Origin: Mogibacterium sp.
Lineage (GTDB): Bacteria > Bacillota > Clostridia > Peptostreptococcales > Anaerovoracaceae
DNA: 64,000 nt
Direction: 5' to 3'
NCBI GenBank assembly: GCA_017512365.1
Contig: JAFWGQ010000014.1
Coordinates: forward strand, 221,634 to 285,633
Shown: piece after piece, positions 7,051 to 48,278 of the stretch
Layout of the letters: every line of letters begins with the position of its first letter
Numbering within the stretch: position 1 is the stretch's first letter
Made by a program: the position numbers and the translations under genes
The notes under the pieces: generated by a model
The model's database searches: none
Told to the model about the DNA's origin: nothing
The model's input: only the letters and a program-made list of their open reading frames with translations

Positions 7051-7053
7051 CCG

Positions 7054-7314: not shown

Positions 7315-7330
7315 CCTGATTCCTCCGTTT

Positions 7331-7870: not shown

Positions 7871-7901
7871 AATATATAATTCCTCCTTGAACCAGACTCG
7901 C

Positions 7902-7936: not shown

Positions 7937-7954
7937 AGCGGTTAACCGACAAAG

Positions 7955-7983
7955 ATGATACTACATTGTAATTGCAAGGTCAA
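7955..7983 (-). promoter_or_regulatory. promoter of rplU-rpmA
   Basis: Minus-strand TTGACC (7978-7983), 17-nt spacer, TATCAT (7955-7960). It predicts a leader of roughly 78 nt before rplU. Confidence 0.65.
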
Positions 7984-8030
7984 GAAGGAATTTCATTATT
8001 TATATAAGAGAGTTTTTGTTTCCGGAGAGA

Positions 8031-9116: not shown

Positions 9117-9137
9117 ATTTCCTCCTGGATCACGTAT

Positions 9138-9151
9138 AGAACGCTTGTTCG
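9138..9151 (-). promoter_or_regulatory. LexA (DinR-type) SOS box of recA
   Basis: Minus-strand CGAACAAGCGTTCT matches the Gram-positive SOS box CGAAC-N4-GTTCG at 9 of 10 fixed positions. It lies just downstream of the recA -10, where bound LexA would block transcription. Confidence 0.85.
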
Positions 9152-9156
9152 TATTC

Positions 9157-9185
9157 ATATTACCTGTTCTGACATGTCGTGTCAA
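9157..9185 (-). promoter_or_regulatory. promoter of recA
   Basis: Minus-strand TTGACA (9180-9185), 17-nt spacer, TAATAT (9157-9162). The -35 is perfect. The SOS box follows within 6 nt. Confidence 0.8.
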
Positions 9186-29928: not shown

Positions 29929-32900
29929 TTACCTTCTGCTGCGGTTTTCGCGGGTCCTCTGCGTCACGTACACTGACAGCAGTATCATCGACAGAATCAT
30001 TACCACTACCCACAGGAAGGCTGCGTTTTCTTCATCCCCAGTGCGGACTTTCTTGCCGTCACCGTTGGTATTGGCCCTGTTCGCGCAGTCAGGATCGAAC
30101 TTGGCTACGAATATCGTGTTGCCGCCTGCATCCACGGATTTTACCCATCCGACGAACTGCATGTTCTTATGGCGCGGATCCTTCGGAACCTTTACGCTGG
30201 ACGGATCGTTGGTCAGCTCGCTTATGAGCACAGGCTTGCCACTGAGCGGATCGATGTATGTAGTCACAGGTGTGACCTCAGGTGATATCTCGCTGTAGAC
30301 CGCAACGAGCACATAGTTGCCGTTGTCGTCCCAGTTGAGATCCCATCCTACGAACCTGACGCCTTTGTGCTTAGGATCTGACGGAGCGCCCGTCCTGTTC
30401 TCCGCGGCTTTCCTCGCCTCTTCCGTGCTCTTATATGATGCGGACTTTATGATCATGGCATTCTTACCGACAGGATTCTTCGGATCGACATATATCACGT
30501 CTCCGCGAAGCGGGATCTCTCCCTTTTCATTCGTCACTGTAACAGCGTAATGCCTCTCATAATAATCCTTCCCTTGCTGAGGCGAAGCGTCAGCGGTAGG
30601 TTCGTATGAATCTCCCTTCTTCTCGTACAGACCAAGCTCTTTAGGATTATCACTTTCTCCCACACTGACCTTGTCAAATCTTACCTTGGTCTCTCCTACG
30701 TGAGCGGTATAACCCTTAACAGGCTTTTCCTCGACGGTATATATCACGTCATAGGAGTTCCCGCCCTTATGATATACCGTATCCAGATTGTCCCAGGTAT
30801 ACTTCATGGCAGCGTCAGGATCGCTCTTGTCATATTTGATGGTCTGAGTATCGATGGTCCTTCTGGCGCCGTCGATGCCGTCGATGATCTGTATGAGCGA
30901 TACTTCCACAGACGTCCTGCCCGATTTATCGGATTTGTCGCCTTCCCATTTCTTTGTTACGGTAAGCGAAGTCTTGGCTCCGACGCTGTGTGTGTTGGTA
31001 ACAGTGAATCCTTTGTTGTCTCCGGTCACAGAAACATCATATCCGGCAATGCTCTTTTCGGACACCTTGTACGTGATCTCTTCACCATTCTCGTCATACT
31101 TCGGAAGTCCCATGAACGTATGCTTCCATTTCTGAGCATCTCCTTCGGCCGCTTCGTCCTTCGAGAGTTCGAAGTGTCTGACGACCTTGTCATGTTTTAC
31201 GTCTCTGAGGTACAGCGTTATATGATCCGGTCTGAGCCCGCTGCTGTTCTCGTTATCGTTCCACACCTTTGTAACAGGGATATCTATAGTTTCCTTTTTA
31301 AATGCGTTGACGATCTCGAACTTGCCCGGCTCTTCAACTCTGTATACAGGTTCCGCATAATGGCTGTCTTCTATTTCTGCCTCTTTTACCATGTAGAGGA
31401 TCGGGACGGTTGCCTTGCCTGACTTGTCTTTTTCAACAACAGGCAGATTATTCCAGGTATGCTCCCAACCTGATGATGAATCTACTCCTACGCTATCATA
31501 AGGCTCATCCTCTACGGTATCGCCCACCTTTCGCCAGAGCTCAAATGTGACTTCATCAGGCCGATGCTTATAGTCTTCATTTTCCCAGACATCTTCGTCA
31601 TCCCAGATCTTTGTCGCTGTGACATCTGTGACAGGCTCGGCATATGTGTTTGTGACAGTGAAGCCGTTTTCAAAATCTCCACTGATCTCTGTAATATAGC
31701 CGTAAACCGGTTCTTCCGTGACTTCCCATGTGAGATCAGTGTCACTGTGATGACGCTTCGGTATATCGTTCCATGTCACAGTTCTATCCGACTCTGTCTC
31801 CGCATCCTTTGATATCGTCTTTGTCCCTGCGTCATAAACGATCAAACCGTTCTCCTTGCCATACAGATGCAGGACAACATCGGACCTGCTGAGTGAAGTA
31901 TCGACGCCATCGGATTCTACCCAGACCTTGGTCGCACTGATGCTTTGTTCAACTGGTTCATGTCTGTTTGTTATGCGGACTCTGTTGTTCCAGTCTTTAG
32001 GTTTAGAATCATACCAAGTCTTGTCGGAACTCTGGTACTCGACAGCTGCCTTATATCCTTCCGGCACATTCTCTTCGGATATCGTGTAGTCGTACCTGGA
32101 TCCATCCGCCTTATACACCGGCAGATCCCTGAATGCCGACTTCCAGTTATTATCATCGCTCAAAGTCAGGCTGTCGACAGTTTCGCCATCTGCTGAAACA
32201 TTGACAGTCACAGATCCAGGTCTCATTCCGTCCTGATCATTCGCATCATCCCATTTCTTCGATACAACTATCGTAGTGGAACCCGCATCTTTGACGGTAT
32301 TTACGAATACCGGTATAGCGCTTCCAACCGCCTTGCCGTCATATCTGACGGTCGTGACGATGCTGTCTCCGGAACGCTCTGCGTGCACATGCACCTCGTG
32401 CTTTGAGCCATCGTATATCACATCATCGTACTTGAATCTGTGGCTCTCCTTTTGCTCCGGAGTTGCATCAGCATACCTGACATCAGTCTCCTTGCCTTCA
32501 TCGTCAAGCATCCTGGCATCATCAGGGATGACTTCGCGCATGTCATAATAGAAGTCTCCTTCATAGACCTCGCCTGTTACAGTTCCCTGTCCATCTGATT
32601 TTTCAACGAGAGTCAGGTCCCCTATGCTGTATGTGATGTCGCCGAATACAGCCTGGCGCTGGCTTTCAGAAAGCTTATCGTTATCAATGGTCACTATGCC
32701 ATCGGATGCCGGAAGAGGTATGTCTGTAATGATCCTGCCTCCCTCATCCTTTTTCAGCTTGTCGCGGTCAGCAAGGCCGTCCGATCCTTCTATCAGACTG
32801 CCCTTATCATCATATGTTCCGATGCCGACCGGATCGAGCTTGAATACGAATCCGTCGCTTTCCGTCCAGTCGCGTCCCGCGAGTTCTTTGACAAGACTTA

Positions 32901-35900
32901 CGGATGCTGTCCCGGCGCCGGTCTCCGGCGCATAGACGTTCGTAACGTAAAGTTTCTTTTCAAGATCTTCCGTGGTGTACTGCGATCCGTAGCTGACATC
33001 CTTATCGACGGCTTCATCCCAGTCTTCTCTGTATCCTTCAGCCTCCTTTCTGTCGGCATAACGTACAGTATCGTCTACTCCGTAGTATGTGATCACATTA
33101 GGATTGACCGCAGCATCTTCTATCACGCGCCATACAAGCTGTTTGTCAGCAAGATGGTTATTATCGCCATTATCGGCAAATACCGGTATATTGCTGAATT
33201 CATGCTCATACACGGACACTGTTACTGCCAGACCGTTGATGTTGCCATGCGAAGGATTGCCCGCGCGCTTATAATCAGCTGACGTAAATGTATGCGTATC
33301 GTAGTCTATCCAGGCGTCTTCACCGGAATCCATTTTGCGGTACTGCAGTCTGACAACGACGTCTTCTTCAAGATCACCTCTCCAGATCTTGACTGCTGTG
33401 ATATCGCGGGTCGCCTGATCCACAAACTGCGCGCTTTGTGACTGTTTGCCTGTTTCCGGATTGTATCGTGGTTTCAGGCCATATCTGTCAGTGAACATGC
33501 CTATGCTTACATCAAGCGTTCCGTCTCCCTTGTCGATAATGGTCACTTTCATGTACTCTGGGTCTTTATCTATCGGAAGATCATCAGCAAACGACTTAAT
33601 TTCCTCAAATACATACATGTACTGAGCATAGGAAGTGTTCGCCGGAACATCCCTGCCGTTCGAGTATTTCAGTTCACCTGCATTCTTGGTTACCTTATTC
33701 AGGTCCTCTTCCGTGAATATGAGTTTCGGATAAGTGAACTCAAAGGCATTGTTCGTGCCTATCTTACCATTCGGAACAGGTACGCGGATCTTATGCGCGC
33801 CTTCTGATGTGTGCACAGCCTTGCCGTCATTCAGAGCTCTTTCACGATCATCTTCTGTCTGTGTATCCTGAGCCGGGAACTCAGACTTATCGGCGTCATT
33901 GAACGGAGCTCCTCCGATCGGAGCCATTGTGAAGTCGAACTTATCGTCCTTCGTCCACTTGCGTCCCATGATGTACTTCTCGCCATCAGCTGCCACTACG
34001 GCTTCGGTGCTGTACCTGTTGGTAAATACAGGCGTGAACTGAGTCCCTGTCGTTATTTTGCCTTCTGTCTTTTCATCATAGGCGACCTGAACGACAAGAT
34101 CCTTTGTACGGTTCTCGCGTACTTTCACATGCACGGTATGTACTTTATTGTCGTATGTCACTCCTTTATATGTATATGTCCCGTCATCATTCTGCGTTGC
34201 TCCTTCAGGAACTACCTCTTTTACGGTATAGAAGAAGTCTCCCTGCATATGCCCGTCATTATCGTCATATATAAGATCGTCTATCGTGTAGGTGATGGAG
34301 CCGAATCGGGCAAGACGCTCGCCCTCGCCTACTATCTCTTTTGCATGGACTGATCCGTCGGCATATTCAGTCCAGTTGGCAGCCATGGCCCGGTTGGTTT
34401 CTGTCTGAGGATCAAGTTCAGAAGATATCACCGATGCAGGCATCGGAATGTTTGTGCCGACTTTGCTGTCCATTACGACCTTGCCGTCTTTGGTCACAAG
34501 TTCGCCTCCGGAATCATACGTGCCCATTCCTACAGCAGTCAGCTCAAACTTGTAGCGATCCGCCGGATTTCCATTGCTGTCCGCGCTCAGCCACTCGCGT
34601 CCGAGAAGCTGTTTGACGGCAGCGATATTGGACACATTGGTCGCAACAGTCTTATTGACCACCGTAACAGCATCGCCTCTGGTATCGGTGCCTGTCCAGT
34701 CTTTTATCTCCGTCTGGCTTTCTCCGACGCGGTATGTGGTCTCATATGCGCTTGAGCCCGATGCTTCTCTGACGCGGTATACGTATTCGCGTCCGGTAGG
34801 AACGCCCTTGGCGTCGTTATGTTCGTATTTTTCGAGGCCGGTGAACACATAGCTCGAGCTTTCTTTGAGTGTGCCGTCTTCATTGTAGAAGTCACTGATA
34901 TTGAAGACATGCGTTCCAACAGGATCCCAGGCGTTGATATTCGTAGGCAGTACCACAGGAATCGTGTGAGCCTGATCACTGTAATATTTGCCGTCCGCAT
35001 CGATGTATACCGGATAGCGGCGCAGATTGACCGTCACTGTGTCCATAGGGTCTGTTTTATTGCCTACGTTATCGACCCATTTCTTGGTCACAGTGATATC
35101 GATGGCAAGGCGGTTTCTGAAGTATCCTGTTGCAACATAAGCGTAATCTCCGCCTTCAGATGCATCTGCAGGCGCGATCTCTCCTGTCTTTGCATTTACA
35201 AGGAGTTTAGGCTCATGCTGTTCACGTCCCTCGAGAGGCTGTGTGCATGCGGCGTCTAGGAAGTATTCCTGATCGATCCTGAGAGTGCCGTCCTCGTTGT
35301 CTGTGACATTGACGCGCAGATAGATGTAGTTGTCATCATATTCGAGGTCGCTCACCTTGCTTACAGCCGGATCGTCGCACTTCTCCAGTTCCTTGAACTG
35401 ATATACGAAAGTACCGCACAGTATTCCGTCCGATCCCGCAACAAGGTCTCCCGAATTGATGTAGTTCACGTCTACGGCACGGGCCATATCGCTTCCGGAA
35501 TCCGCTCCCGTAGCGGCATAGTTTCCGGCTGTTCCGTCAACGTATACGCCGTCGCTTTCTCCATATCCGACCGGACCTATCACGCCGACAACAGGATCTG
35601 TCTTGCCCGGATCATCAGGATCTTTCATGCGAACCGGAGAACCGGACAGATTCGTATATTCGAACGCAAACCTGTCGCCCTCCTTGAATTCGCGGCCAGC
35701 AATGCGCTTTATTACATATCCGTGTATCTCGCCGTACGCCTTGTACTCGTTTACGAATACAGGCACGGCGCTTGAGCTGTCTTTGCCGTCCCAGAAGCGC
35801 TGGGTCGTAACGTTGCCGTTTCCGTCATCAGCGGCAAGTATGCGGAGAGTATGGACATCATCTGTATATGTGATGCCATTTTCGGTTTTTCCTCCGACAG

Positions 35901-38900
35901 GATCGCCGCTTTCATCTACTTCATATACCTTGTAGAAGTACTCTGCAGTCCCGTCCTGCGGCACGGACGCGCCTGAAGCTCTGCCGCTTACGAATATGAT
36001 GTTGGCAAAGTCTACAGATCTGCCTATTGCTCCGACACGTTCTTTTGAGGCGTCTACCGATGTGATGTCATCACGCCCGGTGGATGGATCGCCGTCATCC
36101 GGGAGAGGGACCTTGCGCTTTTCATCTTCTTCATCAGGGCCAAAGTCTATCGGTTTTCCGTCATCGTCGATGCCCTTGATGGCCTCGATCCTGAAGTAGA
36201 ATTTATCCGTGCTGTTCCAGCGGCGTCCCTCAAGTTCTTTGACGACATTAGGTCTGGCAGCGCCCACGCCGTCGTATTCGTTTGTGTTTGTCACCTGTAC
36301 ATTGCTGTCCTGATTTGCCGTGAAATACTGCCCCGTCGACGTTTCAAGCACGCGGTAAACGTATTCAGTGCCGTTCCTGTCGTATTTTTCAAGCTTTTTG
36401 AAGGTATATGAAGACTCGGCAGGATCTATCAGCTTGCCGTCATCGTCATAGAACTCTTCAGTCGTAAATGTATGCGAGACTCCCTCGACTTTTTCCCACT
36501 TATCATCAGGCGTCCACTTTCCGTCTGTTATGCCGGACTCAGGGTTGCTCCTGATATCCGCGTCAGTCGTGCGGTAAAGATCGAATGTCACATTGCTTGT
36601 CGGGATGCCGTCCCAGACTTTTTTGACTGTGAGTTCTGTCAGAAGTATGTTTGTTATCCTGACGTACTTTTCCTTATCTGTGTTCCAGCCTTCCGGAAGC
36701 GAGGTGCTCCAGCTGCTGTTGTCGAGGCTGTACTCGATGAGCGATGTATAATAATCATCCGGCACGGCCATCTCTCTGGCAGTGTATTCGTAAGGCGTAT
36801 TATCCTCATCATACATCGGCAGATACGCAAACTCTGCCTCCCATGCAGGATCATCATCTTTGCGCATGAGTCTCAGATTGTTAGGCAGCAGTGTTCCGTT
36901 TCTGTACAATGCCACTACAACGACATTGCCGCGTTTTGTGTCATCGTTATTGTCTTTCCACTTCTTGCTGACATGCACCTTTGTAGTTGCAGTGTCCGTG
37001 AGCATAATGACGCGCGGTTCAGTATCGCTGCCTTCCCGGATGACCTTAGGCTCGGCAGACTCAAAGTATCCGCTGCCTGCATCGGTCTCAACTATCTCGT
37101 AGATATAGTCATTGCCGTTTTTATCGGTAGCAGGCAGATCCTTGAATGTCACAGGAAGCTTATCGGCCGCGACTGTCGCCTGACCATCTGCGTATGTTAT
37201 CTCTACAGGATCTTCTCCTCCCTGTGCATGCCCGTAGAGCTTGGCGTTTCCGTCGAGTTTATCCAGTATCTCAGTGTTTCCGCCTTCGATCCTGCGGGTA
37301 AGCTGGATCGTGATAGCCGGACGTCCTGCTATAGTCTCCTCATCATTCGTATCATGCCATGTCTTCTCCACTCTGAGATCCATGACATTTCGATAAATGT
37401 TGGTGAACGTTACGTCATAGCCATCTCCGGCGCGCGGGAACTCAAGAGGCTCAGTGAAAGCCTCGTCACTGTAGAACGTGCACCTGGTGTCGATAGTTCC
37501 GTCAAGCTTGTCTATGGCCGTAAGTTTGACATAGATCTCTGTTTTGTCCTTGTCCACTCCGGTCACGCTGTGATCCTTCTCAACGAGCTTCGCTGGGAAT
37601 TCGCCGTATCTGACATCCTTAGGCACAGGCGTCACACCGTCAGAGTAATACAGATCATCTTCAGCTGCCGTTGTATTGTTCAGCAGTTCAAGTCCGATGG
37701 TGTTAGACTGGAAAGTGCCTGCATGATTCTCTGTCGTCTTTTTTATAACGACATCTCCGGTAGAAACTCCGGGACCGCCTGCTATCGGCTTCAGTTCGAA
37801 AGTGAAGCCGTCGCTGTCTATAAGGTAATCCCAGCCCCGATCATCCTCTGAGCTGCCCTTGTCCACGAACTTCCGGAGCTTTATCTCAGCGATGCCTTTA
37901 GCATCATATATGTTAGTAAACAACGGCGCGCTGGCGCGAGGATTCGATGCGTTCTTTGCATCATTCTCAGTATCATAGTATGTAACTGTAGTGCTTAGCG
38001 TTCCCAGGCGGTTATCGCTTACGTCGATGCGAGCGTAGTAAACCAGTCCCTGCGTCTTCGGAGTGAATCCGTCGGCAAGGTTTTCTTCATCCTCAGTGAT
38101 CTTATAGAAGAATGTTCCTTTCAGGAATCCGTCAGCAGCATCATAATCCAGCATTTCATCAGTAAACCGGGTATCCTTTATCGCTGCATAGCGGCCGCCT
38201 ATTCCCGAAACAGGATCGGAATTCCCGGCATATGCCTCGTACTGCCCGTTCGCGTTCATGTTCGCGTTATCGCCTGTACTGCTGTTTCCTGATGCGCCCC
38301 GGTTGTTCGGATCTATCGTATTGCCCGGAAGAGGCACGTCTGATTTATTTATTTTTTTGTTTTGATCGCCGCCCTTGTAACTGTGTATAGTATCTGATTC
38401 ATATGGCTCTATAAAGAACTTGAATCTATCTATATCCTGCCATGAACGTCCTTCAACTTCCTTTATGATATCCATTCCGGCTTTGCCGTTTGCATCATAA
38501 ACATTGTTGAAGTTCGCATAAGATGTGTCTTCATGCTTCTTTGAAGGCTCTTCTCCGCTTATTATCTTATAGACAGGCCCGGACACCTTAAGTTTTCCAT
38601 CGTTGTTGGTCACTGTAACGATGGCATTATAATGAGTTTCCGAGTATTGGATAGAAGTGTTTGTTCCCGGCTTCTCATATATCTCATACACGAAGCTGCG
38701 TCTTTCTGCATATAAGCCGTCGCTCTTCACAAGATCATCCATCGTATATGTGATCGGCCTGAACTCCGTGGTCCCGCTCGTCGAGTACGGTGATACGGAC
38801 GGACTTACAGTCGCTTTTGCTGTCCCGCCTGCAGCTGTCCCGTCAGGCATCGGAACATCGTCCTTGCTGTAATCGTCATCCAGTTCGACTTCTGTCTGAC

Positions 38901-41900
38901 TCTTTGATACTCCGACCGGCTTCATCTCGAAGTCGAATCCGACGCGCGTGATAGGACGCTCGAACAGATACTTATAGACCTTCTGCACGTAAACGCCTTC
39001 AGCATCATATATGTTGCGGACCGTCAGTTTATTTGTTGAAGTTGCCGTGGACGCTGTGGCTATAATATTTCCTTTTCCGTCATCCCTTAATGCAACGGTT
39101 ACCGGATGGGATATCTCAGGGTCATAGGTTATTCCATTCATGACCCATACATGAGCGTCACGCACCTCAATAGGAGTCTCGGTGCCATATACAAGAGTCT
39201 CATCATCCTTCGCAACAGCGCCTGCAGGTATGTCCTCACGTATGTTGTAAGTGACGGAACCATGCGCAGCGTCAGTCTCGGTAAACTTCAGAGTCCCGAG
39301 AGTGACATTTCCTTCACCGTCGTTTGTCTTGCCCTTGATGTCATTTCCGTCCTTATCCTTTACGACCTGTTTATTTGAATCATAAAGCGTAAACCCGAAC
39401 TGACCGGCAGACAGGTTTCCTCCGTCAAGGACTTTTGTGAGTTCAAGAGATAATTCTCCCTCGGCCGTATACCTGTTCTTTATCACAGGATAATGCCCTG
39501 AAGTCGGGTCATTTGAATCGAATATCTTGTTTTCTTCTGCTACGGAGCCTTTGTAATAAATGACATGCGGATCTATGGCAATTCCACTGCTGTCCTTAGC
39601 GATCGTTACAATGATAATGTACCTGGCTGTTTCCTTGATCCCGTAATCGATATGCGGATCTGCCGCAGATGTATCTTCGGTTATTTCATATCTCAGATCT
39701 TTGTGCTTGCCAGCCTTTATGCTGTTATATACAGAATCGAATTTGACAGCCCCGAAGTTTACTTCTCTTGCATTTGTGACCGTCACAGTTTCCGTTGAAC
39801 CAGTAAGAACAGCTCCCGGAGGTATGTCTTCCTGTGAAGGCAGCGGAGCCCCGTCTTTACCGGTAAGGATCAGATCAAAGCTCATGTCCTCAGGCCATAT
39901 AGGAGCATCGCTGCTGTCGACCAGACTCTTGGAGGCGAAGAAATTACGGCTGCTTCCATGCTTGCGGTTTGTTACAACAAGTGCCTGGCTCTCAGGCGCT
40001 GTATCCGAATCATAGTACAGATCAAAGTCAAGCGTGCCGTCGCCCTTATCTTTAGGTACAACTTTTATCGTATGATATCCGGCAACAAGCTTGCTTATGT
40101 CGAGATCCCATTCATCAGCAACGTAGCCGCTGAACTTCGGCTCTTCTTCCGTCACTTTATATACGAACTCCTTGCCTGCATCTGACAGCCTGAATTCACC
40201 GAATGTCCAGATCGCTCTGTGGTTGGTGTCTTCATCGTCTGTCAGTCTTGCGGCTCTGCGCGCTTTTCCAGGCTTCGGCATCGTTGCGGTGGTATATCCT
40301 TCTGGCGCTTCATGCGGCTCAAGCCTGAACCAGAAGTTCATGTCCTCGTCCCAGGAGATGCCGTTCAGCAGCTTGCGCACCATGACGGTGGCATCGCCTT
40401 TCGCGTCATATGTGTTGGTGAAGTCGGCTTCGCTGCCGTCTGCGTAAGTGATCACGGCCTTAAGCTTTCCGTCAGTGTCCTTAGTGACAACGACAGTTAC
40501 GTTCTCTCCGTCCTTGGTATCATTCGTAACGCCGGCAACTTCACCGGACTCAGTCACCTTGAAGCTGTAGGTTCCTGTCTTGCTGAACTGATAGCTGATG
40601 CTTCCTTCGGCATAGCTGTCAGTGTTGCCGGATTTGCCATGGCGAGTCATGTTCGCTATCGTTATGGATTCCGCTGACGAGCTGAATCCGGCGGCCAGTC
40701 TTGCCTTCTCAGCCTTTGAAAGGCTTTCATCAGGAACATACTCCGCCTTGAAAACGAATGCGTCATCAGCTTTCAGATTGCGCCCTCTGAGGATCTTCTT
40801 CACTTTGATGTCCGCATTGACCGTCTGTTCATGCCTGTTCAGGACCTTAGCAGAATCATATTCCGCATCTGCAAGCACTGTGCCGTCATAATTGTCATTT
40901 ATAACATCACCGGCGCTGACGCCGCTGGCAATGCGCGCAGACAGAGTGCCGTCAAGATTATTGACAACTACGACCGTGACCTTTGTTCCGCCGTCAGCCG
41001 GCTGTACGAGGCCTTTATTGTTTTCCGTTATCGGTGTTTCATATACATAAAGATCCTTGTAATAAGTACCGTCCGGATTTTGATCCAGGTTGATCCACTT
41101 GTCCGGAGTGAGCAGATGATCGATCACCTTCATCTGGGCTCTTGCTCTGCCGTTGTCATCAGTGATGATGCGGAATGCTATATCTTCGAAGACTACATCC
41201 TTCGTTTCAGTCAGTCCGTCTTCAGAGAGAACGCCTTCCCTGATGCGGATGCTGTCGCCCACCTTGTCGCCGGAAGCACTCTGTCCGGTGTAAAGCGACA
41301 GCACAAAATCCCAGTCTGACAATCTTGTCGAACCGGTCATGATCTTGGTAGCGTTAATGTCAAGCGTGCCATTTGGCTCCTTGATATTTGTGATGGTCCC
41401 GCCATTCAGCGCTTTATCACCATCCGAATATACAGGCGGCAGATATCCGTCGATCTGATTCTCTGTTACCCAGTATACGTACTCATATCCTTTATCGTCA
41501 TACCTGGCCTGATCCTTGAATGTATATGAAGTTTTGTCGTTGTCCCAGATCGGGGTCGCTGTTACAGACTCTACGTCTGAACCTTCCTTCTTTGACTTCC
41601 TGAACAGATTCAGATCAGGTTTCGGACCCGCTGCATCGTCTTCTTCCCTGTCCTTCCAGACCTTGGTGCCGGTAACATCGATCTTTCCCTCTATGGTGTT
41701 TACGATGGTTCCGCCGTCAAGCGCTTTGTCCGTTCCGCCGCTCTCTCCTGTATTCTCATAAGAAACCGTGTAGCCTTCAGGAGGAGTCTCAGTCACACTG
41801 TAAGTGCGCAATGCGCCATTTTCACTGAATTTACTGAGACCGATGACGGTATAAGTGTGAGTCGCGTCGTCCCAGTCGATATGCGGTTTATCGACAGTGC

Positions 41901-44900
41901 CCGAGCCGCCTCTTGCATCGGTCCAGCTGACAGTCAGCTTTCCTTTCAGTTCGGCCGAATCGCAGTGCGTAAGACCTCCGTCGACCCATTTTTTGGTTCC
42001 CGATATCGACGTGATGTCATATGTGTTGATCACGGTATTTGCAGCCGGTATCACGCTCTTGATGTAATTGGCAGGAACATCGTCATCAGCCTCGTCTACC
42101 GTATAATTGATCTTAGTGCCGTCTGAGTTGTATGCCGGCACTTCCATTACCTTACGCCAAAGGGCATCATTGCTCGTCGCATCCAGTGCTTCTGTAAGCG
42201 CGACTTTTTTAATGCTCGTGTTTCCGCTTACGCTCCATCCGTCTTCAGGCGTGAGTACATTGGCATCTGTCGTGTCGGCGGTCAAAGTCAGGGTCACGCT
42301 GTCAGGCCTCTTTACCTTGCTGATCCCATCCGCATCATTGTCTATCCAGATCTTCTGCAGAATCAGGTCGCGCGATCTGACAGTGTTTTCGAATTTCGCG
42401 CCGTCCTGGTCGTATGTCACTGCAGCGTTCAGGTCTCCTCTGCCGTTATCCGTGACTTTGACCGTTACCGTCTCAGCGTGAGAATCAATAGTGACATCAT
42501 CGGTGCCGCGTCCGTCGACCTGAAGCTCTTTTATCGTATATGTATAGGTCCAAGGCCCGTTGTCCGGATCGGTCGTGTCAGCAGACGTGCATATCCCCTT
42601 CTCCTTGTCCTGATTTACTTTGTCGAGGTTGTACGCGATACTGAAGCTGATCTTTCCGTCCGCATCGTTTGCGTAAGTTCCGATGACATTGCCCTTACAG
42701 TCTTCCAGAGTAAAATAGAAATCGTTCGCTCTGAGAAGCCCTCCATTCAGAACTTTTTCCGCTTCTATGGTGACATTTCCTGACGCGTTGTATTCATTGG
42801 TGAATATCCCGGCTTTGACAATGCTGCTTGAGGCTCCCTGTGTGCTGAAGCCTGTGCCGAGATAGGAATCGCCTGCACCGTCATGGTTGCCGTTAACTGC
42901 AACTACCTTAATATTGCCTGCGCCGTCTTCACGCACGGTAACAGCGACGGTCCTGGAATTTTTGTCGGTCGTTACGCCGCTGCCGTCAGTACTTGTTTCT
43001 TTTATCCTGTATATGAATGTTTTTTCGTAATATCCGGTTTCGGTGCGTACGGCGTCATATGCGCCCGGCTCCGCGGCGGTTCGTTTCAGATCATTCTGCG
43101 TGAATGTGACCGCGCCGAATTCGATCGTGCCGTCCGCCTGATTGCTGACCTTGTTCGGCGCAGGAAGCGGCGCTCCTGCTGTCACTGCTTCGATCTCAAA
43201 TTCGAAATCTCCCGCAGCGAGGTCTCTGCCCTTTATCTTTTTCTGAGCTTTGATGGTCACATCGCCGCTCGCTTCATATTTATTTGTAAATACAGGTCCA
43301 TCCTGCGGTATTTTTGATACAGTTATCTTTCCCGTATTGTCATCGCGTGTGACTTTTACCTTCATCTGGAAAGCAGTTGCCTCGCTATTGTGGGAGTCAT
43401 TCGTATATCCCGGCGCGGCACTGCTGCTCTCCCACACTTTGTATGTGAAGATCCGTTCAGACATATAGTAAGAGCCTACCGCATCGTTCGGAGCAAGAGA
43501 TCTGTCGTCGACGCGCTTTTTGCCTTCAAATGTCCACAGCGATTCGGCCGTATCTCCCTTTGCCGCCTGGCGCTGGGATTCTGTCGCTTCAGCATATTTT
43601 ACAGTTCCGGCATCATAAGTAGTGCCGTCAACTACTATTGCCTCTGAATTGACAGCGTCATCAGGGATCGGGCCATATACAGTATTGCCGTAGGTCCATT
43701 CTATAACCTGTTCCTTGCCCTGCTCTGATTTCTTTATCTCTTTTTTCAGATCATCATTTTTGTATGTGATCGCTTTGTCGAAGCCGATCACGGCCTGGAC
43801 ATCATTGGTCCCGCCCTCTCCGGCATTCGTGGTCTTTATCTTCTGAGTTGAACTGACTGCTGTGCCGCCGTAAGTTCCTCCCGGCATAGGAGTATTATTA
43901 GCCCTGAGCTTTGTATCGACTCCATAGCCTTCTTCCGTATCCACAGCTTTTATGGTGAAGCTGTTTTTGTACTGATCCGCCGATATCGGACGGCCGTTCA
44001 GATCCTTTATTATCTCAGGCTCAAAATCCGTTTTATTATCATAATCGTTTTCGAAATATACAGGCTTGAGATCGACTTTCGCTATGTCAAGATCGCTTGA
44101 CTGACTTGCAGTAGCATCAACACCGCCAATATAGAACTTGCCTGCTAGCTCATCGTAGACTACGTCTACAGTCAGTACCTGCATGGCGGAGTCATTTTCC
44201 ACCATTGGTCCGTGCTCAGGATTCTCACTTACCGTGTACTTGAACACAGCGGAATAAACGCTGCCTTTTGCGCCGTCCACGAAAACGCCTGCGCCCGGCA
44301 GCGATTCAAAGGCAGTCCTGTCCGCAGCATCATTCATGTCGAAAGTCCTTGTGACCTTCTTCTGTGTTGCAGGATCCGCATACGTCAGAGTCCAGAAACG
44401 CACCCTCGATCTTTCTTTATCAGAAGCCGAAGCATAAGTGACTGCTTTTTCCTTAAGATCGCTCTTCCGGTATGAGATAACTCCGAAAGCTGCGGTCTTC
44501 CTGGCCTCATTGATCTTTCCGGCAGTAGTAGTCGAAGCTACTACCTTGTCCGGCTCATCGTCTCCCCTTCCCGGTATCTTTACGGATGTCTTTACAGGCA
44601 TAGGAGTCCCGTCTTCGCCGGCAAGTATGAACACGTAGTCTTCATTGCTTCCGAATGCGCGTCCGTCAAGAGCCTTCTGTACGGATATCCTGGCTGTAGC
44701 GACCGGCTCGAGGCTGTTTATCAGGTTGTACCCGAAGTCCGCGTCCAGATCCCCGTTTGAAGTCACTGTAAGAGAATAACCTGCAGGTACGTCCTCATCT
44801 ACCGTATAGGTGATCTCCTTTCCTGATTCGTCGTACTTAGGAAGGAAGTTGACCCAGTAAGAATCGCCGGTAGCCTCGAACTCGCCGGTAGTTGAGTTGT

Positions 44901-46881
44901 ATGTATATGCCCGGAACTGGCGCTTTGAATAATCGTAGAAATAGTAAAGAGCCTTGCCGTCTGTGTTCGTAGCAGGAAGGCTGTCTGTGTCCGGATAAAC
45001 TGTTTCAGTGAAATGGTTGTTGGCTTTGCCGTCGCCCCATGTCGCCGTCCAGTCGTCATTGCCGTCATCTGCCCGTCCCGGAGCATAGCTCTGTGAAGGC
45101 AGGTAATCTTCAGGATAATGATGGCTTTCTCCACTTTCATAGTTGGCAGCGCCGTTCACATGCACCACTATGTTCTCACGTGTACCGAACTTATTGTTCT
45201 TGTCATACCATTTTTTTACGGCGCTTACTTTTACGGATACCGGCACCCATGTGACCATTATGGAGTGGTCATAATTGTTGTACGGGAATTCAAAAGTATA
45301 GCTTCCGTCATCTTTCTTGGTGATGGTTCCTGTCTTGCCGTCTGCAAGCGACACTGTTTTTGTCTCACCTGCTGCCATTTCCGCAACGCCGGAGATCTCT
45401 GTTGGTACATCGGTGATGCTGTTATTTATGCGCAGCGTGTCAAGGACATATCCCTTGTCCGGTTTCATCGTATAGACGACCGTCTTTCCGTCAGGAACAA
45501 CATACGTTCCCTGTCCGAGTATCTTTCCGCCGTCACTCAGATCGCCGCCGTAATTGGCCTCTGTCGTAGTCTGTATATTGCCTCCCGGGCCTGTGACGGA
45601 ACGTATGCGATGCCAGATCTGCGTACCGGTCATGAGAGAGGTGTTCATAACACCGTTATACGTGCCGTGTCCTGTTGTAGTCACGCTTATTCCTGATGCA
45701 GCATCGGCAGTGGTTATAAAACCGCTGACATAGGCATTGTTATTGGCCTGGGTCTGTATTTGCGGTTTAGTGTCCGCCGTAAATTTTACAGCTCCCTGAT
45801 AGGCTCCTGAGAGGACTTCCGTGATCATCGGCTGATAATAATTTTTGTTGCCGGAGTCGGGTGCGGATTCCTCGATACTGCTGTTAGGACGCACATAGAT
45901 ATCTGCTTTATTGCCGCTGTTTATGCGCAAAGCTTCACTGAAGAAGTCATATTCAGGGTAGCTGTCCTCAAAATACCATAGCGGCTTGGCATAACCAAAG
46001 CCGGAATCCGGGTCTCTGTCTATATTGAGTCCCACTGTAGGAAATATGAACGTCCCGTCTATCGGATCCCCGTTATCATCCACGACCTGTATGCGGGCAT
46101 CCATCGACAGGCCGGTAACTGCATATTTTGTATTGCTGTATCCCGAAACGGGATGATCTGTTGATCCTTTCACAGCTCCGTTATAAGTGTCATAGTATGT
46201 CGTGTCTTCGTTTCCGTACTGTACTGAATTCCCGTAGGCGAGATGAACCGCGCCGTTGAGAGGAGAATCCGCGCCTGCGCTGCCAAGACGCTGGTCAACG
46301 TAGATATGTGCATTTGAATATGTGATCTTTACACTTGCGCGGCTTCCGTCAGTAAGGACGGCGGCATTCGGGAATGTATATGAAAAGAGGTTTCCTGCAA
46401 GATAATTGTCCTGGCCTGCCTTAAGCTGCAGCTGCAGCCCGGCCGGATCATATACTACATAAGTCTTGCCTGTGCTCACCTGCATGGTTTTTATGCCGTC
46501 TGCAAAAGACGCCTGATGTGTATTGGACGTGCTCGCAAGTTTGGCGTATACACCCTGTTCAGGCGTAAGATAATTCATATCGATATATATCGTGGACAAC
46601 GGCATGGCCGATCCGAATGTCGAAACGGAGGTCGTGCTGGTCGACTGATGAACGCCGCCAACGTTATATTGAAAATTGCCTCTGGTGGTGACTGTATCGG
46701 TAAAACTGTCCTGCGCGTTGATCGTTGAATCCGCGAAAACGCCGGCCAGTCCGCTCATTAGCATGACCGCAGTCAACAGACATGTGAAAGCTATCTTGAG
46801 GCCGCGTCCGCCCCTCTGGCTGCCGCGCCTGTAAGTGATATCCCTGCCGGTATTTCCGTTGTTATCAATGGATCTGTCCAT
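29929..46881 (-). CDS. giant cell-wall-anchored adhesin of repeated pilin-linker and Cna-B domains
   Basis: A 5,650-residue protein (about 0.6 MDa). After a basic N-region, the signal segment LKIAFTCLLTAVMLMSGLAG precedes a unique ~500-residue head. From about residue 555 to 5450 the chain is a string of immunoglobulin-like modules. By eye there are about 17 FctA/Spy0128-like pilin isopeptide-linker modules (each opening like KVLNGGLLRANDFYF and closing YxAxG) and about 14 Cna-B modules (KKWDD..N...RP ... YTISEENVPEGY). These folds typically form internal Lys-Asn isopeptide bonds. Two FVGW-type repeats, a degenerate sorting signal (KVRTGDEE, hydrophobic helix, RENRSRR) follow. The ATG at 46881 is preferred; a GTG 14 codons earlier is possible. 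No sortase gene is in the window. Confidence 0.93.
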   Translation of the reverse strand: MDRSIDNNGNTGRDITYRRGSQRGGRGLKIAFTCLLTAVMLMSGLAGVFADSTINAQDSFTDTVTTRGNFQYNVGGVHQSTSTTSVSTFGSAMPLSTIYIDMNYLTPEQGVYAKLASTSNTHQASFADGIKTMQVSTGKTYVVYDPAGLQLQLKAGQDNYLAGNLFSYTFPNAAVLTDGSRASVKITYSNAHIYVDQRLGSAGADSPLNGAVHLAYGNSVQYGNEDTTYYDTYNGAVKGSTDHPVSGYSNTKYAVTGLSMDARIQVVDDNGDPIDGTFIFPTVGLNIDRDPDSGFGYAKPLWYFEDSYPEYDFFSEALRINSGNKADIYVRPNSSIEESAPDSGNKNYYQPMITEVLSGAYQGAVKFTADTKPQIQTQANNNAYVSGFITTADAASGISVTTTGHGTYNGVMNTSLMTGTQIWHRIRSVTGPGGNIQTTTEANYGGDLSDGGKILGQGTYVVPDGKTVVYTMKPDKGYVLDTLRINNSITDVPTEISGVAEMAAGETKTVSLADGKTGTITKKDDGSYTFEFPYNNYDHSIMVTWVPVSVKVSAVKKWYDKNNKFGTRENIVVHVNGAANYESGESHHYPEDYLPSQSYAPGRADDGNDDWTATWGDGKANNHFTETVYPDTDSLPATNTDGKALYYFYDYSKRQFRAYTYNSTTGEFEATGDSYWVNFLPKYDESGKEITYTVDEDVPAGYSLTVTSNGDLDADFGYNLINSLEPVATARISVQKALDGRAFGSNEDYVFILAGEDGTPMPVKTSVKIPGRGDDEPDKVVASTTTAGKINEARKTAAFGVISYRKSDLKEKAVTYASASDKERSRVRFWTLTYADPATQKKVTRTFDMNDAADRTAFESLPGAGVFVDGAKGSVYSAVFKYTVSENPEHGPMVENDSAMQVLTVDVVYDELAGKFYIGGVDATASQSSDLDIAKVDLKPVYFENDYDNKTDFEPEIIKDLNGRPISADQYKNSFTIKAVDTEEGYGVDTKLRANNTPMPGGTYGGTAVSSTQKIKTTNAGEGGTNDVQAVIGFDKAITYKNDDLKKEIKKSEQGKEQVIEWTYGNTVYGPIPDDAVNSEAIVVDGTTYDAGTVKYAEATESQRQAAKGDTAESLWTFEGKKRVDDRSLAPNDAVGSYYMSERIFTYKVWESSSAAPGYTNDSHNSEATAFQMKVKVTRDDNTGKITVSKIPQDGPVFTNKYEASGDVTIKAQKKIKGRDLAAGDFEFEIEAVTAGAPLPAPNKVSNQADGTIEFGAVTFTQNDLKRTAAEPGAYDAVRTETGYYEKTFIYRIKETSTDGSGVTTDKNSRTVAVTVREDGAGNIKVVAVNGNHDGAGDSYLGTGFSTQGASSSIVKAGIFTNEYNASGNVTIEAEKVLNGGLLRANDFYFTLEDCKGNVIGTYANDADGKISFSIAYNLDKVNQDKEKGICTSADTTDPDNGPWTYTYTIKELQVDGRGTDDVTIDSHAETVTVKVTDNGRGDLNAAVTYDQDGAKFENTVRSRDLILQKIWIDNDADGISKVKRPDSVTLTLTADTTDANVLTPEDGWSVSGNTSIKKVALTEALDATSNDALWRKVMEVPAYNSDGTKINYTVDEADDDVPANYIKSVIPAANTVINTYDITSISGTKKWVDGGLTHCDSAELKGKLTVSWTDARGGSGTVDKPHIDWDDATHTYTVIGLSKFSENGALRTYSVTETPPEGYTVSYENTGESGGTDKALDGGTIVNTIEGKIDVTGTKVWKDREEDDAAGPKPDLNLFRKSKKEGSDVESVTATPIWDNDKTSYTFKDQARYDDKGYEYVYWVTENQIDGYLPPVYSDGDKALNGGTITNIKEPNGTLDINATKIMTGSTRLSDWDFVLSLYTGQSASGDKVGDSIRIREGVLSEDGLTETKDVVFEDIAFRIITDDNGRARAQMKVIDHLLTPDKWINLDQNPDGTYYKDLYVYETPITENNKGLVQPADGGTKVTVVVVNNLDGTLSARIASGVSAGDVINDNYDGTVLADAEYDSAKVLNRHEQTVNADIKVKKILRGRNLKADDAFVFKAEYVPDESLSKAEKARLAAGFSSSAESITIANMTRHGKSGNTDSYAEGSISYQFSKTGTYSFKVTESGEVAGVTNDTKDGENVTVVVTKDTDGKLKAVITYADGSEADFTNTYDAKGDATVMVRKLLNGISWDEDMNFWFRLEPHEAPEGYTTATMPKPGKARRAARLTDDEDTNHRAIWTFGEFRLSDAGKEFVYKVTEEEPKFSGYVADEWDLDISKLVAGYHTIKVVPKDKGDGTLDFDLYYDSDTAPESQALVVTNRKHGSSRNFFASKSLVDSSDAPIWPEDMSFDLILTGKDGAPLPSQEDIPPGAVLTGSTETVTVTNAREVNFGAVKFDSVYNSIKAGKHKDLRYEITEDTSAADPHIDYGIKETARYIIIVTIAKDSSGIAIDPHVIYYKGSVAEENKIFDSNDPTSGHYPVIKNRYTAEGELSLELTKVLDGGNLSAGQFGFTLYDSNKQVVKDKDGNDIKGKTNDGEGNVTLGTLKFTETDAAHGSVTYNIREDIPAGAVAKDDETLVYGTETPIEVRDAHVWVMNGITYDPEISHPVTVALRDDGKGNIIATASTATSTNKLTVRNIYDAEGVYVQKVYKYLFERPITRVGFDFEMKPVGVSKSQTEVELDDDYSKDDVPMPDGTAAGGTAKATVSPSVSPYSTSGTTEFRPITYTMDDLVKSDGLYAERRSFVYEIYEKPGTNTSIQYSETHYNAIVTVTNNDGKLKVSGPVYKIISGEEPSKKHEDTSYANFNNVYDANGKAGMDIIKEVEGRSWQDIDRFKFFIEPYESDTIHSYKGGDQNKKINKSDVPLPGNTIDPNNRGASGNSSTGDNANMNANGQYEAYAGNSDPVSGIGGRYAAIKDTRFTDEMLDYDAADGFLKGTFFYKITEDEENLADGFTPKTQGLVYYARIDVSDNRLGTLSTTVTYYDTENDAKNASNPRASAPLFTNIYDAKGIAEIKLRKFVDKGSSEDDRGWDYLIDSDGFTFELKPIAGGPGVSTGDVVIKKTTENHAGTFQSNTIGLELLNNTTAAEDDLYYSDGVTPVPKDVRYGEFPAKLVEKDHSVTGVDKDKTEIYVKLTAIDKLDGTIDTRCTFYSDEAFTEPLEFPRAGDGYDVTFTNIYRNVMDLRVEKTWHDTNDEETIAGRPAITIQLTRRIEGGNTEILDKLDGNAKLYGHAQGGEDPVEITYADGQATVAADKLPVTFKDLPATDKNGNDYIYEIVETDAGSGYFESAEPKVIREGSDTEPRVIMLTDTATTKVHVSKKWKDNNDDTKRGNVVVVALYRNGTLLPNNLRLMRKDDDPAWEAEFAYLPMYDEDNTPYEYTAREMAVPDDYYTSLIEYSLDNSSWSTSLPEGWNTDKEKYVRITNILLTELTVKKVWDGIPTSNVTFDLYRTTDADIRSNPESGITDGKWTPDDKWEKVEGVSHTFTTEEFYDDDGKLIDPAESSYTFKKLEKYDRNGTEYVYRVLETSTGQYFTANQDSNVQVTNTNEYDGVGAARPNVVKELEGRRWNSTDKFYFRIEAIKGIDDDGKPIDFGPDEEDEKRKVPLPDDGDPSTGRDDITSVDASKERVGAIGRSVDFANIIFVSGRASGASVPQDGTAEYFYKVYEVDESGDPVGGKTENGITYTDDVHTLRILAADDGNGNVTTQRFWDGKDSSSAVPVFVNEYKAYGEIHGYVIKRIAGREFKEGDRFAFEYTNLSGSPVRMKDPDDPGKTDPVVGVIGPVGYGESDGVYVDGTAGNYAATGADSGSDMARAVDVNYINSGDLVAGSDGILCGTFVYQFKELEKCDDPAVSKVSDLEYDDNYIYLRVNVTDNEDGTLRIDQEYFLDAACTQPLEGREQHEPKLLVNAKTGEIAPADASEGGDYAYVATGYFRNRLAIDITVTKKWVDNVGNKTDPMDTVTVNLRRYPVYIDADGKYYSDQAHTIPVVLPTNINAWDPVGTHVFNISDFYNEDGTLKESSSYVFTGLEKYEHNDAKGVPTGREYVYRVREASGSSAYETTYRVGESQTEIKDWTGTDTRGDAVTVVNKTVATNVSNIAAVKQLLGREWLSADSNGNPADRYKFELTAVGMGTYDSGGELVTKDGKVVMDSKVGTNIPMPASVISSELDPQTETNRAMAANWTEYADGSVHAKEIVGEGERLARFGSITYTIDDLIYDDNDGHMQGDFFYTVKEVVPEGATQNDDGTYTYKGVTYDNKVHTVHVKVRENRTKDLVVQVAYDEKTEGKITTGTQFTPVFTNRYSTEAVVAADGEKYIMGRKWTKDDKFDFTMAPIGGAPFNDADKSEFPAQDTQTEDDRERALNDGKAVHTSEGAHKIRVPVPNGKIGTNNAFEFTYPKLIFTEEDLNKVTKNAGELKYSNGRDVPANTSYAQYMYVFEEIKSFADDLPIDKDPEYMKVTIIDKGDGTLDVSIGMFTDRYGLKPRYNPETGKQSQSAQFVDQATRDITAVKIWRGDLEEDVVVRLQYRKMDSGEDAWIDYDTHTFTSADYKRAGNPSHGNINGLAVTVSVYEHEFSNIPVFADNGDNNHLADKQLVWRVIEDAAVNPNVITYYGVDDTVRYADRKEAEGYREDWDEAVDKDVSYGSQYTTEDLEKKLYVTNVYAPETGAGTASVSLVKELAGRDWTESDGFVFKLDPVGIGTYDDKGSLIEGSDGLADRDKLKKDEGGRIITDIPLPASDGIVTIDNDKLSESQRQAVFGDITYSIGDLTLVEKSDGQGTVTGEVYEGDFYYDMREVIPDDARMLDDEGKETDVRYADATPEQKESHRFKYDDVIYDGSKHEVHVHAERSGDSIVTTVRYDGKAVGSAIPVFVNTVKDAGSTTIVVSKKWDDANDQDGMRPGSVTVNVSADGETVDSLTLSDDNNWKSAFRDLPVYKADGSRYDYTISEENVPEGYKAAVEYQSSDKTWYDSKPKDWNNRVRITNRHEPVEQSISATKVWVESDGVDTSLSRSDVVLHLYGKENGLIVYDAGTKTISKDAETESDRTVTWNDIPKRHHSDTDLTWEVTEEPVYGYITEISGDFENGFTVTNTYAEPVTDVTATKIWDDEDVWENEDYKHRPDEVTFELWRKVGDTVEDEPYDSVGVDSSSGWEHTWNNLPVVEKDKSGKATVPILYMVKEAEIEDSHYAEPVYRVEEPGKFEIVNAFKKETIDIPVTKVWNDNENSSGLRPDHITLYLRDVKHDKVVRHFELSKDEAAEGDAQKWKHTFMGLPKYDENGEEITYKVSEKSIAGYDVSVTGDNKGFTVTNTHSVGAKTSLTVTKKWEGDKSDKSGRTSVEVSLIQIIDGIDGARRTIDTQTIKYDKSDPDAAMKYTWDNLDTVYHKGGNSYDVIYTVEEKPVKGYTAHVGETKVRFDKVSVGESDNPKELGLYEKKGDSYEPTADASPQQGKDYYERHYAVTVTNEKGEIPLRGDVIYVDPKNPVGKNAMIIKSASYKSTEEARKAAENRTGAPSDPKHKGVRFVGWDLNWDDNGNYVLVAVYSEISPEVTPVTTYIDPLSGKPVLISELTNDPSSVKVPKDPRHKNMQFVGWVKSVDAGGNTIFVAKFDPDCANRANTNGDGKKVRTGDEENAAFLWVVVMILSMILLSVYVTQRTRENRSRR

Positions 46882-46944
46882 TTCGTTTCTCTTCTTATAT
46901 AACACCTGCTGTATTTTTCTCACTGACCGCTCTGCAGGCGCCGT

Positions 46945-47406
46945 TTACTTTCTGAATACCATTTCCGACCCGTTCTGCTTTATGGTGAGCTTCCTTCTTT
47001 TATACTTAAAGGATGCTTTCTGTCCGTCTATATTCATGGTCATCTTATTGATGTCATAGCTTATGTTCGTTGTCTGGCCGAAAACGTCCATTATGGCCGT
47101 CCCGTTGTCGTGGACCTCAAGCGTTATCTCAAGACCGAGTTTTTTCATCTCGTCAACATCCCCGGATGTGATACCGCCGCCGCTGCCCTCGACAGATTCG
47201 AGCACATAGCTGCCGGCGATATTGGATGCGGTCGCTTTTGATGCGCTGTGTATTCCAAGTATCACTGCCAGAAGGAGCAGCATCAAAACAAAGAGCAGCA
47301 CAACAAGCGCTTTTTTGTTGAGAGCTCCGTTTATATAAAACACGTCTGTGATCTTCTGCCTGATCGATGTGTCGTCTTTTATATTTTCAGCGGGTTTTTC
47401 AGTCAT
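46945..47406 (-). CDS. small membrane-anchored lipocalin-like protein
   Basis: A 153-residue protein with a cytoplasmic N-terminus of about 32 residues, one transmembrane helix (LVVLLFVLMLLLLAVILGI), and an extracellular domain that starts IAGSYVLESVEG and ends in short beta-strands (ATMDV-like, YDINKMTMNIDGQKASFKYK, KLTIKQNGSEMVF). This resembles lipocalin-like/DUF domains found on gut Clostridia membranes. It is the first gene of a unit with the giant adhesin 63 nt downstream, so an accessory or envelope-sensing role is possible. No named function is assigned, and the ribosome site is weak. Confidence 0.7.
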   Translation of the reverse strand: MTEKPAENIKDDTSIRQKITDVFYINGALNKKALVVLLFVLMLLLLAVILGIHSASKATASNIAGSYVLESVEGSGGGITSGDVDEMKKLGLEITLEVHDNGTAIMDVFGQTTNISYDINKMTMNIDGQKASFKYKRRKLTIKQNGSEMVFRK

Positions 47407-47684: not shown

Positions 47685-48278
47685 ATGAAAAAAACGGCCA
47701 CATTTATTCTATGCATCATACTGACTTCCATGCTGTTTGCCGGCTGCGGCGGCAAGGAAAAAGGGACCATTCCCGAATCTCCTTTTGCCGGGCGGGATAC
47801 CGTCGATCTGAGCGGCTATGACAGCATGTCCGGTCACGACGGCGGCAGCCGCTTCGTCGATACCACCGTCGCAGAGATCGACCGGATGATGAGCGACGGC
47901 GAATCGTTCATTTTCTTTGCCGCTTTTGAAGACTGCTCATACTGCGATCAGATGATGCCTTATCTCAACGACGCTCTCGCGGAAGCTGATACTTACGCCG
48001 GCTATCTTGACACGCGAAAGGATTCCGACTGGATGAACAACGCGGACATAGATGATTACGATCTATTCGTAAAGCGCTTCGGCAAGTATCTTGAAAGCGA
48101 CAGCAGCGGCAGCCCTCATCTTTACACGCCCGATCTTTATGTCATCAAAAACGGCAAAGTAAAAGCGCACCACCAGGGTGTGCTTGAAAGTGCCGATGAT
48201 CCCGATCAGCCTCTCTCCTCTTCTCAGGAAGAAGAGCTGCGGGAGCTTCTTGAAGAAATGATCGACGTACTGAAGTGA
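47685..48278 (+). CDS. thioredoxin-fold lipoprotein
   Basis: A 197-residue lipoprotein. The signal MKKTATFILCIILTSMLFAG ends in the lipobox LFAGC. The mature part has a thioredoxin-like fold with FIFFAAFEDCSYCDQMMPYL, in which CSYC is the redox motif, and PDLYVIKNGKVKAHHQG matches the cis-Pro/strand region. It is close to bacteriocin-transport-accessory (Bta)-type proteins. Likely extracytoplasmic thiol-disulfide exchange; the partner is unknown. It is transcribed divergently from the adhesin unit and ends in a strong terminator. Confidence 0.85.
   Translation: MKKTATFILCIILTSMLFAGCGGKEKGTIPESPFAGRDTVDLSGYDSMSGHDGGSRFVDTTVAEIDRMMSDGESFIFFAAFEDCSYCDQMMPYLNDALAEADTYAGYLDTRKDSDWMNNADIDDYDLFVKRFGKYLESDSSGSPHLYTPDLYVIKNGKVKAHHQGVLESADDPDQPLSSSQEEELRELLEEMIDVLK

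Follow-up and report, generated by a model that had tools for sequence, protein, structure and literature searches.

A putative single-gene fibrillar adhesin with a predicted isopeptide-bonded stalk of 31 modules in a Mogibacterium genome

The window, the whole stretch of 64,000 nucleotides of Mogibacterium sp. DNA analysed here, contains a giant gene on its minus strand (Table 1). Positions 29929-46923 constitute a single unbroken frame of 5,664 codons counted from a GTG at 46923. An ATG at 46881, which lies downstream of a purine-rich stretch, yields a 5,650-residue protein, and the GTG is an alternative start. The frame and its coordinates bear out a preliminary description of this DNA, in which a single-gene adhesin of 5,650 residues was claimed at 29929-46881. 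The protein has a calculated mass of 622 kDa and a pI of 4.65, and the G+C content across the gene (0.48-0.51) is similar to that of its neighbours. The genome, a MAG-like assembly, totals 2.46 Mb across 74 contigs, with 92.9% completeness and 6.94% contamination.

On the upstream side of the gene, a 153-residue protein with one hydrophobic stretch is encoded at 46945-47406 on the minus strand and ends 63 nucleotides before the ATG. This protein has no match in Pfam or NCBIfam, and its gene is perhaps transcribed together with that of the adhesin. Scans upstream of the adhesin gene returned five promoter-like sites (2.2 expected) and one terminator site (1.1 expected), and those downstream returned two promoter-like sites (0.6 expected) and two terminator-like sites, both on the plus strand (0.4 expected); neither the promoter nor the terminator scans provided anything usable. 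Further upstream, a 197-residue lipoprotein-like protein (47685-48278, plus strand) displays by eye a thioredoxin-type CSYC motif and matches the PedC/BrcD disulfide isomerase family weakly, below the cut-off. Relatives of this protein are found within about 8 kb of a giant adhesin in the genome G068 of the same genus (loci L051 and L072) and at locus L066. A 1,144-residue protein (51084-54518, minus strand) combines a papain-family (C1) protease domain with a C-terminal Big_2 domain and is probably another surface or secreted protein.

Table 1. The putative giant adhesin gene and the features of its product, with positions in the window
Feature	Position	Strand	Basis or remark
Giant adhesin gene	29929..46881	-	5,650 aa from ATG
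N-terminal leader, hydrophobic signal-peptide-like stretch (KIAFTCLLTAVMLMSGLAGVFAD)	46729..46881	-	By eye
Head, about 496 aa	45241..46728	-	No convincing Pfam, NCBIfam or PDB match
Module 1, Cna-B (K570 E710 N736)	44701..45240	-	Pfam search, segmentation, triad table
Modules 2-5, FctA	42373..44700	-	Pfam search, segmentation, triad table
Modules 6-8, Cna-B	41368..42372	-	Pfam search, segmentation, triad table
Modules 9-16, FctA	37387..41367	-	Pfam search, segmentation, triad table
Modules 17-19, Cna-B; in module 17 Asp3310 replaces Asn	36265..37386	-	Pfam search, alignment
Modules 20-21, FctA	35107..36264	-	Pfam search, segmentation, triad table
Module 22, Cna-B	34639..35106	-	Segmentation, triad table
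Modules 23-24, FctA; in module 24 Asp4502 replaces Asn	33412..34638	-	Pfam search, segmentation, profile HMM
Module 25, Cna-B	32914..33411	-	Segmentation, triad table
Module 26, FctA	32281..32913	-	Segmentation, triad table
Modules 27-31, Cna-B	30505..32280	-	Pfam search, segmentation, triad table
Two List_Bact (Flg_new)-like repeats near the wall	30064..30504	-	By eye; Pfam score 22.5, cut-off 27
Sortase-type tail: VRTGD, hydrophobic stretch, RTRENRSRR	29932..30048	-	By eye

The protein consists of a leader, a head, 31 modules, two List_Bact-like repeats and a sortase-type tail. Segmentation by eye and alignment divides residues 562-5473 into contiguous modules without gaps, 17 of the FctA type and 14 of the Cna-B type, which agrees with the estimate of roughly 17 FctA/Spy0128-type and 14 Cna-B modules in the preliminary description. 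They are arranged in the order C-FFFF-CCC-FFFFFFFF-CCC-FF-C-FF-C-F-CCCCC (C, Cna-B; F, FctA), and the modules thus form blocks, as had been described, and do not alternate, contrary to what had also been claimed. Translated Pfam searches recovered 12 of the 14 Cna-B modules (PF05738, all above the cut-off) and 12 of the 17 FctA modules (PF12892, 11 above it). Modules 2, 9, 12, 22, 24, 25 and 26, which these searches missed, were assigned through alignment and tiling, and an hmmscan of six pieces of the protein returned 13 FctA and 12 Cna_B stretches. SpaA domains were not found by Pfam in this protein. The claim of conserved YDAKG/YDANG boundaries holds only in part, given that YDA[K/N/E]G occurs at only four of the 31 module ends; the residue triad and the bond spacing described below are conserved instead.

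What is the biological function of the N-terminal head? The window head has no NCBIfam match at E <= 0.01, and the head profile has none in the PDB at E <= 5. Among 21 aligned heads (the window and 20 of the 21 relatives described below; L056, which is cut short, was left out) there is no convincing Pfam match, and the most frequent hit is a weak one to the InlB B-repeat model (Flg_new_2) in six heads, with a best E of 0.0053. Cys is absent between residues 48 and 1409, and hence from the head, which precludes a thioester; the ester-bond motif HxDxxDxxQ was not found in the whole protein. Because both the thioester Cys in the head and the ester motif are missing, the protein does not qualify as a TIE (thioester-isopeptide-ester) adhesin. 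Its likeness to fibrillar adhesins is one of layout, as the head does not correspond to an adhesive domain of known kind. The head is also absent from the plasmid records searched; given this absence and the even G+C content, a mobile-element origin of the adhesin was rejected.

When 47 genomes of the genus, including the own genome, were searched with the head, it was detected in five: the own genome, G063, G017, G068 and, weakly, G021. When the genome-contig collection was scanned with patterns from the window head alone, no relative was found, and a scan with two peptide patterns derived from a four-row head alignment retrieved 21 loci. Three of them (L037, L039 and L051) are G063, G017 and G068, and 18 are further ones. 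Ruminant or rumen-project labels accompany 20 of the 21, a count in which the base rate of ruminant genomes in the collection is not factored in. Eight titles name a ruminant organ or the rumen, 12 isolate names contain RUG, which we take to stand for rumen uncultured genome, and one (SIG258) is uninformative; the word rumen thus applies to the window adhesin through the labels of its relatives. Frame lengths are available for 15 of the 21 relatives, nine with 5,307-8,815 residues (including G063 and G068) and six with 1,247-1,680 residues, among which L045 stops at a contig end; the remaining six run off their contigs. A Pfam scan of five of the six short relatives identified DUF7601 stalk domains in L047, L048 and L052, seven Cna-B domains in L054 and a weak Cna-B match only in L043. 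DUF7601 is listed as a predicted isopeptide domain in PMC12617251. By their titles, the carriers of the head belong to Bacillota and Actinomycetota, and the two phyla are intermixed in the head tree, a mixing to which MAG binning errors could contribute.

These relatives bear on whether the head is adhesive at all. The product may instead serve as a coat on the surface or as a component of a biofilm matrix, with a structural head, and the lack of a known binding domain would suit such a role. However, the head is retained in frames that range from 1,247 to 8,815 residues and on stalks of differing module families, as is expected of a domain that is presented, and we consider the coat or matrix role unlikely, though not negligible. 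The head is likely to be the binding part of the protein, a candidate adhesive domain; one may guess at feed fibre, mucus or another microbe as its ligand.

The 31 modules carry the residues required for intramolecular isopeptide bonds. In MAFFT alignments of the 17 FctA modules (A3) and the 14 Cna-B modules (A4), the mean column identity is 19% and 20%, respectively. Full invariance is restricted to the Lys and Glu columns in FctA and to the Lys, Trp and Glu columns in Cna-B, and Asn occupies the sole further column with at least 90% conservation in both. The FctA modules contain Lys in 17/17, Glu in 17/17, Asn in 16/17 and Asp in 1/17, and the Cna-B modules contain Lys in 14/14, Glu in 14/14, Asn in 13/14 and Asp in 1/14. 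The module starts were picked by eye on Lys-bearing motifs, and the Lys count is to that extent built in; Glu was not used in this way. The Asp of module 24 (motif FVDQ) faces a gap in A3 and was placed by hand, the profile HMM reads the same residue, and the counterparts of this module in G063 and G068, both giant orthologues from the same genus, have Asn. The profile HMM, which was built from these modules, departs from A3 in module 12 (Asp in the Lys column) and in module 21 (Gly in the Asn column) and leaves the Asn of module 5 uncovered; the counts for modules 5, 12 and 21 follow A3.

The triad coincides with that of structurally characterized homologues. The FctA profile matches nine PDB sequences at E <= 0.01, including Spy0128 (3b2m, E 4.8e-7). 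Counting along the 3b2m alignment places the Lys, Glu and Asn of the profile at positions 23, 104 and 155 of the chain. With an offset of 13, positions 23 and 155 are Lys36 and Asn168, whose bond is named in PMC2886109. By the same offset, position 104 is Glu117 of Spy0128. The Cna-B profile matches two collagen adhesin B region sequences at E <= 0.001 (1d2p, E 1.2e-54); Lys and Glu align in all four printed copies of 1d2p, and Asn aligns in a single copy; the local alignments to the remaining three stop short of it. In PMC12617251, Lys-Glu-Asn is listed for both FctA and Cna_B, and CnaB-like domains are stated to typically link Lys to Asn or Asp with the aid of a catalytic Glu. Asp, which takes the place of Asn in modules 17 and 24, is by the same source an accepted partner in CnaB-like folds.

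The conservation extends to the nine giant relatives, in which profiles detected 276 modules, 23 to 38 per protein. Lys is present in 255 of 255 covered columns, Glu in 266 of 269 and Asn in 182 of 185, the exceptions at the last position being two Asp and one Gln; the Lys, Glu and Asn columns are not covered in 21, 7 and 91 modules, respectively. A stalk whose modules keep the fold and in many cases form no bond, and which is held together as a mostly non-covalent chain of Ig-like domains, is hard to reconcile with this conservation. The bonds are predicted from sequence, and two modules have Asp for Asn, which leaves some room for such a chain; Lys and Glu are nevertheless the best conserved columns of the stalk (together with Trp in Cna-B) and nearly invariant in the giant relatives wherever they are covered, and we regard a mostly non-covalent stalk as improbable. 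The 31 modules probably cross-link themselves.

The predicted bonds follow each other at a conserved distance. In all 30 steps, the Asn or Asp of one module is separated from the Lys of the next by 10-17 residues (median 14), and Lys and Asn within a module by 91-241. Consequently, 4,500 of the 4,895 stalk residues, approximately 92%, are located inside predicted bonds and 395 between them. In G063, the spacing is 10-16 residues in 19 of 21 covered steps (28 in total), with outliers of 46 and 137, the latter of which we read as a module missed by the profile; in G068, it is 10-16 residues in 16 of 18 covered steps (28 in total), with outliers of 42 and 47. An extended chain spans ~0.36 nm per residue, and if the bonds form, the 395 load-bearing residues would thus reach ~142 nm plus a little per cross-link, about 0.15 um in all. 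Sortase pili are usually longer than this. The suggestion in the preliminary description that the fibre is perhaps as long as a pilus is therefore probably too much. Its central idea, a single covalently reinforced fibre from one gene, fares better. That idea was to fail if most modules lacked the Lys, Asn and acidic residues; it survived, as 29 of the 31 modules contain Lys-Glu-Asn and the other two, modules 17 and 24, contain Lys-Glu-Asp, and the triads and the bond spacing together support a fibre with predicted bonds.

How would such a protein be anchored? The tail contains VRTGD rather than LPxTG, followed by a hydrophobic stretch and RR. One sortase (PF04203, 279 residues) was found in the own genome, on a different contig from the adhesin, and it belongs to class B according to TIGR03064 (170.5 bits, cut-off 153.75). 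This class B sortase would be the most likely enzyme to anchor the adhesin to the cell wall. By eye, sorting-type tails also occur in all nine giant relatives (VGTGD, VKTGD, SPETGD, APLTGD, PPTGD, LSKTGG, TPKTSD, LARTAD and LAQTSD). The pilin fold of FctA, the matches of the FctA profile to pilins and the smaller FctA frames in other species of the genus would fit a pilin or pilus part polymerized by a pilus sortase into longer filaments. However, the only sortase found is of class B and encoded on another contig (in a genome that is 92.9% complete, so that a missed pilus sortase is conceivable), none of the ten neighbour genes scanned is of the pilin type, and the stalk is already complete within one chain; we thus find polymerization into a sortase-assembled pilus very improbable.

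The giant orthologues of the genus reveal both conservation and rearrangement. The frames of G063 and G068 contain 5,307 and 5,885 residues, respectively, that of G017 runs off its contig, and Pfam finds SpaA domains in the G063 and G068 stalks. Between G063 and G068, 24 of the 30 G063 modules are reciprocal best hits in conserved order. For the window, reciprocal best hits were obtained for 16 of 31 modules in G063 and 15 of 31 in G068. The window-G063 pairs that are in order comprise modules 19, 20, 21, 23, 24 and 25 together with the five terminal Cna-B modules. Modules 4, 6 and 7 pair with a block that is early in the window protein and late in G063 and G068, and the partner of module 18 is out of order in both; these displacements indicate that module blocks have moved. 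The reciprocal hit of module 3 in G063 is weak and crosses module types, and reciprocal partners in G063 or G068 are lacking for a number of modules, including 9 and 11-14. Downstream, genes for an SNF-type transporter and MgtC adjoin the adhesin gene in both the window and G063, with identities of 79% and 63%, respectively, compared with 45% for the head. The adhesin has therefore changed faster than its neighbours at a locus common with G063. Neither of the two genes occurs within about 12 kb downstream of the G068 gene, and the genomic place is thus common to the window and G063 only.

Within the gene, the longest direct DNA repeat listed measures 38 nucleotides (71%). The best-scoring module pairs share 29% identity over 241 residues (modules 23 and 26) and 36% over 114 (modules 18 and 27), and modules 1 and 30 share one short stretch (60% over 30 residues). 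This low similarity, together with the module orthology across species, rules out a recent repeat expansion and sustains the earlier view that the modules are too diverged at the DNA level for one; the divergence appears to be old. A false joining of separate genes or repeats is conceivable, given that the assembly is MAG-like, is split into 74 contigs and includes 6.94% contamination, but giant orthologues with matching module blocks in other assemblies (one of which shares the downstream genes), DNA without long repeats that could collapse and even G+C content make an artefact scarcely credible.

From an architecture, residues, spacing and conservation in relatives that are directly visible in the sequence, we propose that the gene very probably encodes a fibrillar adhesin whose isopeptide stalk would hold a head off the cell, with the bonds, the wall anchoring and the adhesion being predicted. 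The signal peptide would export the adhesin, and its C-terminal VRTGD signal would be attached to the cell wall, with the class B sortase as the most likely enzyme. The 31 Ig-like modules would form a thin stalk that carries the N-terminal head at a distance from the cell. Within every module, the first strand would contribute a Lys and the last an Asn (Asp in two), which would join spontaneously with the aid of a buried Glu. Since each bond would close nearly the whole module, a pulling force could pass only through the ~14 residues between bonds, which would render the stalk hardly extensible and hardly cleavable by proteases. Such properties would fit a gut with shear and proteases.

The putative adhesin shares elements with several known systems. 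The B-region of Staphylococcus aureus Cna (PF05738) and the Cna-B modules of the window adhesin are both stalk repeats with a Lys-Glu-Asn triad. Cna is a wall-anchored protein with a collagen-binding head and few B repeats; unlike Cna, the window adhesin mixes 14 Cna-B modules with 17 FctA modules behind a different head. Its FctA modules belong to the same family as the Spy0128/FctA pilin (PF12892) and share the Lys-Glu-Asn triad. Spy0128 has two domains and is polymerized by sortase, according to PMC2886109 and PMC10619420, whereas the window adhesin accommodates 17 FctA modules in one chain. The closest described counterpart found, compared by description rather than by mutual alignment, is the Mobiluncus mulieris adhesin. 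According to PMC10619420 it has 7,651 residues and 51 cross-linked domains, of which 33 are of the isopeptide type and were found with Spy0128. Both are wall-anchored products of one gene with thousands of residues and dozens of cross-linked Ig-like modules, bonds and anchoring being predictions for the window adhesin. In the Mobiluncus adhesin, ester, isopeptide, disulfide and thioester links occur together and LPxTG is present (PMC10619420); in contrast, the window adhesin contains FctA and Cna-B modules only, lacks HxDxxDxxQ and combines a Cys-less head with a VRTGD tail. The tandem-isopeptide fibrillar adhesins of PMC12617251 likewise consist of a head, an isopeptide stalk and a C-terminal anchor. 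The survey was based on AlphaFold DB models with a limit of 1,280 residues, so the window adhesin is outside its set, and such a survey is blind to proteins of this length.

Giant isopeptide adhesins are already known from Mobiluncus, and the window adhesin is thus not a new kind of protein. In the literature on giant and rumen isopeptide adhesins, of which mainly the open part was covered, this family was not recognised, and the family, the head and the ruminant association look undescribed as far as the open literature shows. We tentatively raise a bolder possibility, about which we remain more doubtful than confident: the head may represent a new ruminant-gut adhesive family that has been passed between Bacillota and Actinomycetota and is carried on near-inextensible single-gene isopeptide stalks, with bonds spaced by ~14 residues in the giants examined and a stalk length tuned such that the full proteins vary approximately sevenfold (1.2-8.8 thousand residues), so as to contact a target found specifically in the ruminant gut. 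Should the bonds form, these proteins would contain very long single-chain isopeptide runs (31 modules here, 23-38 detected in the nine relatives). Protein-ligation and materials work could then draw on the family for numerous diverged, naturally occurring FctA and Cna-B modules, among them the two Lys-Asp candidates of the window adhesin, and a head without a known relative may tell how ruminant-gut bacteria cling to surfaces.

Smaller or related frames occur elsewhere in the genus. In another species (G008, contig C37, 2104-13557, plus strand), a 3,818-residue frame has 19 Cna-B profile hits above 8 bits, 17 of them in one run; a head match was not found in that genome. In the own genome, contig C72 carries a smaller Cna-B adhesin-like frame of 1,115 residues with a SAKTGD tail (5815-9159, minus strand), and contig C40 carries an 803-residue frame with an FctA match (3340-5748, minus strand) that shares 48% identity over 63 residues with the late part of the window head.
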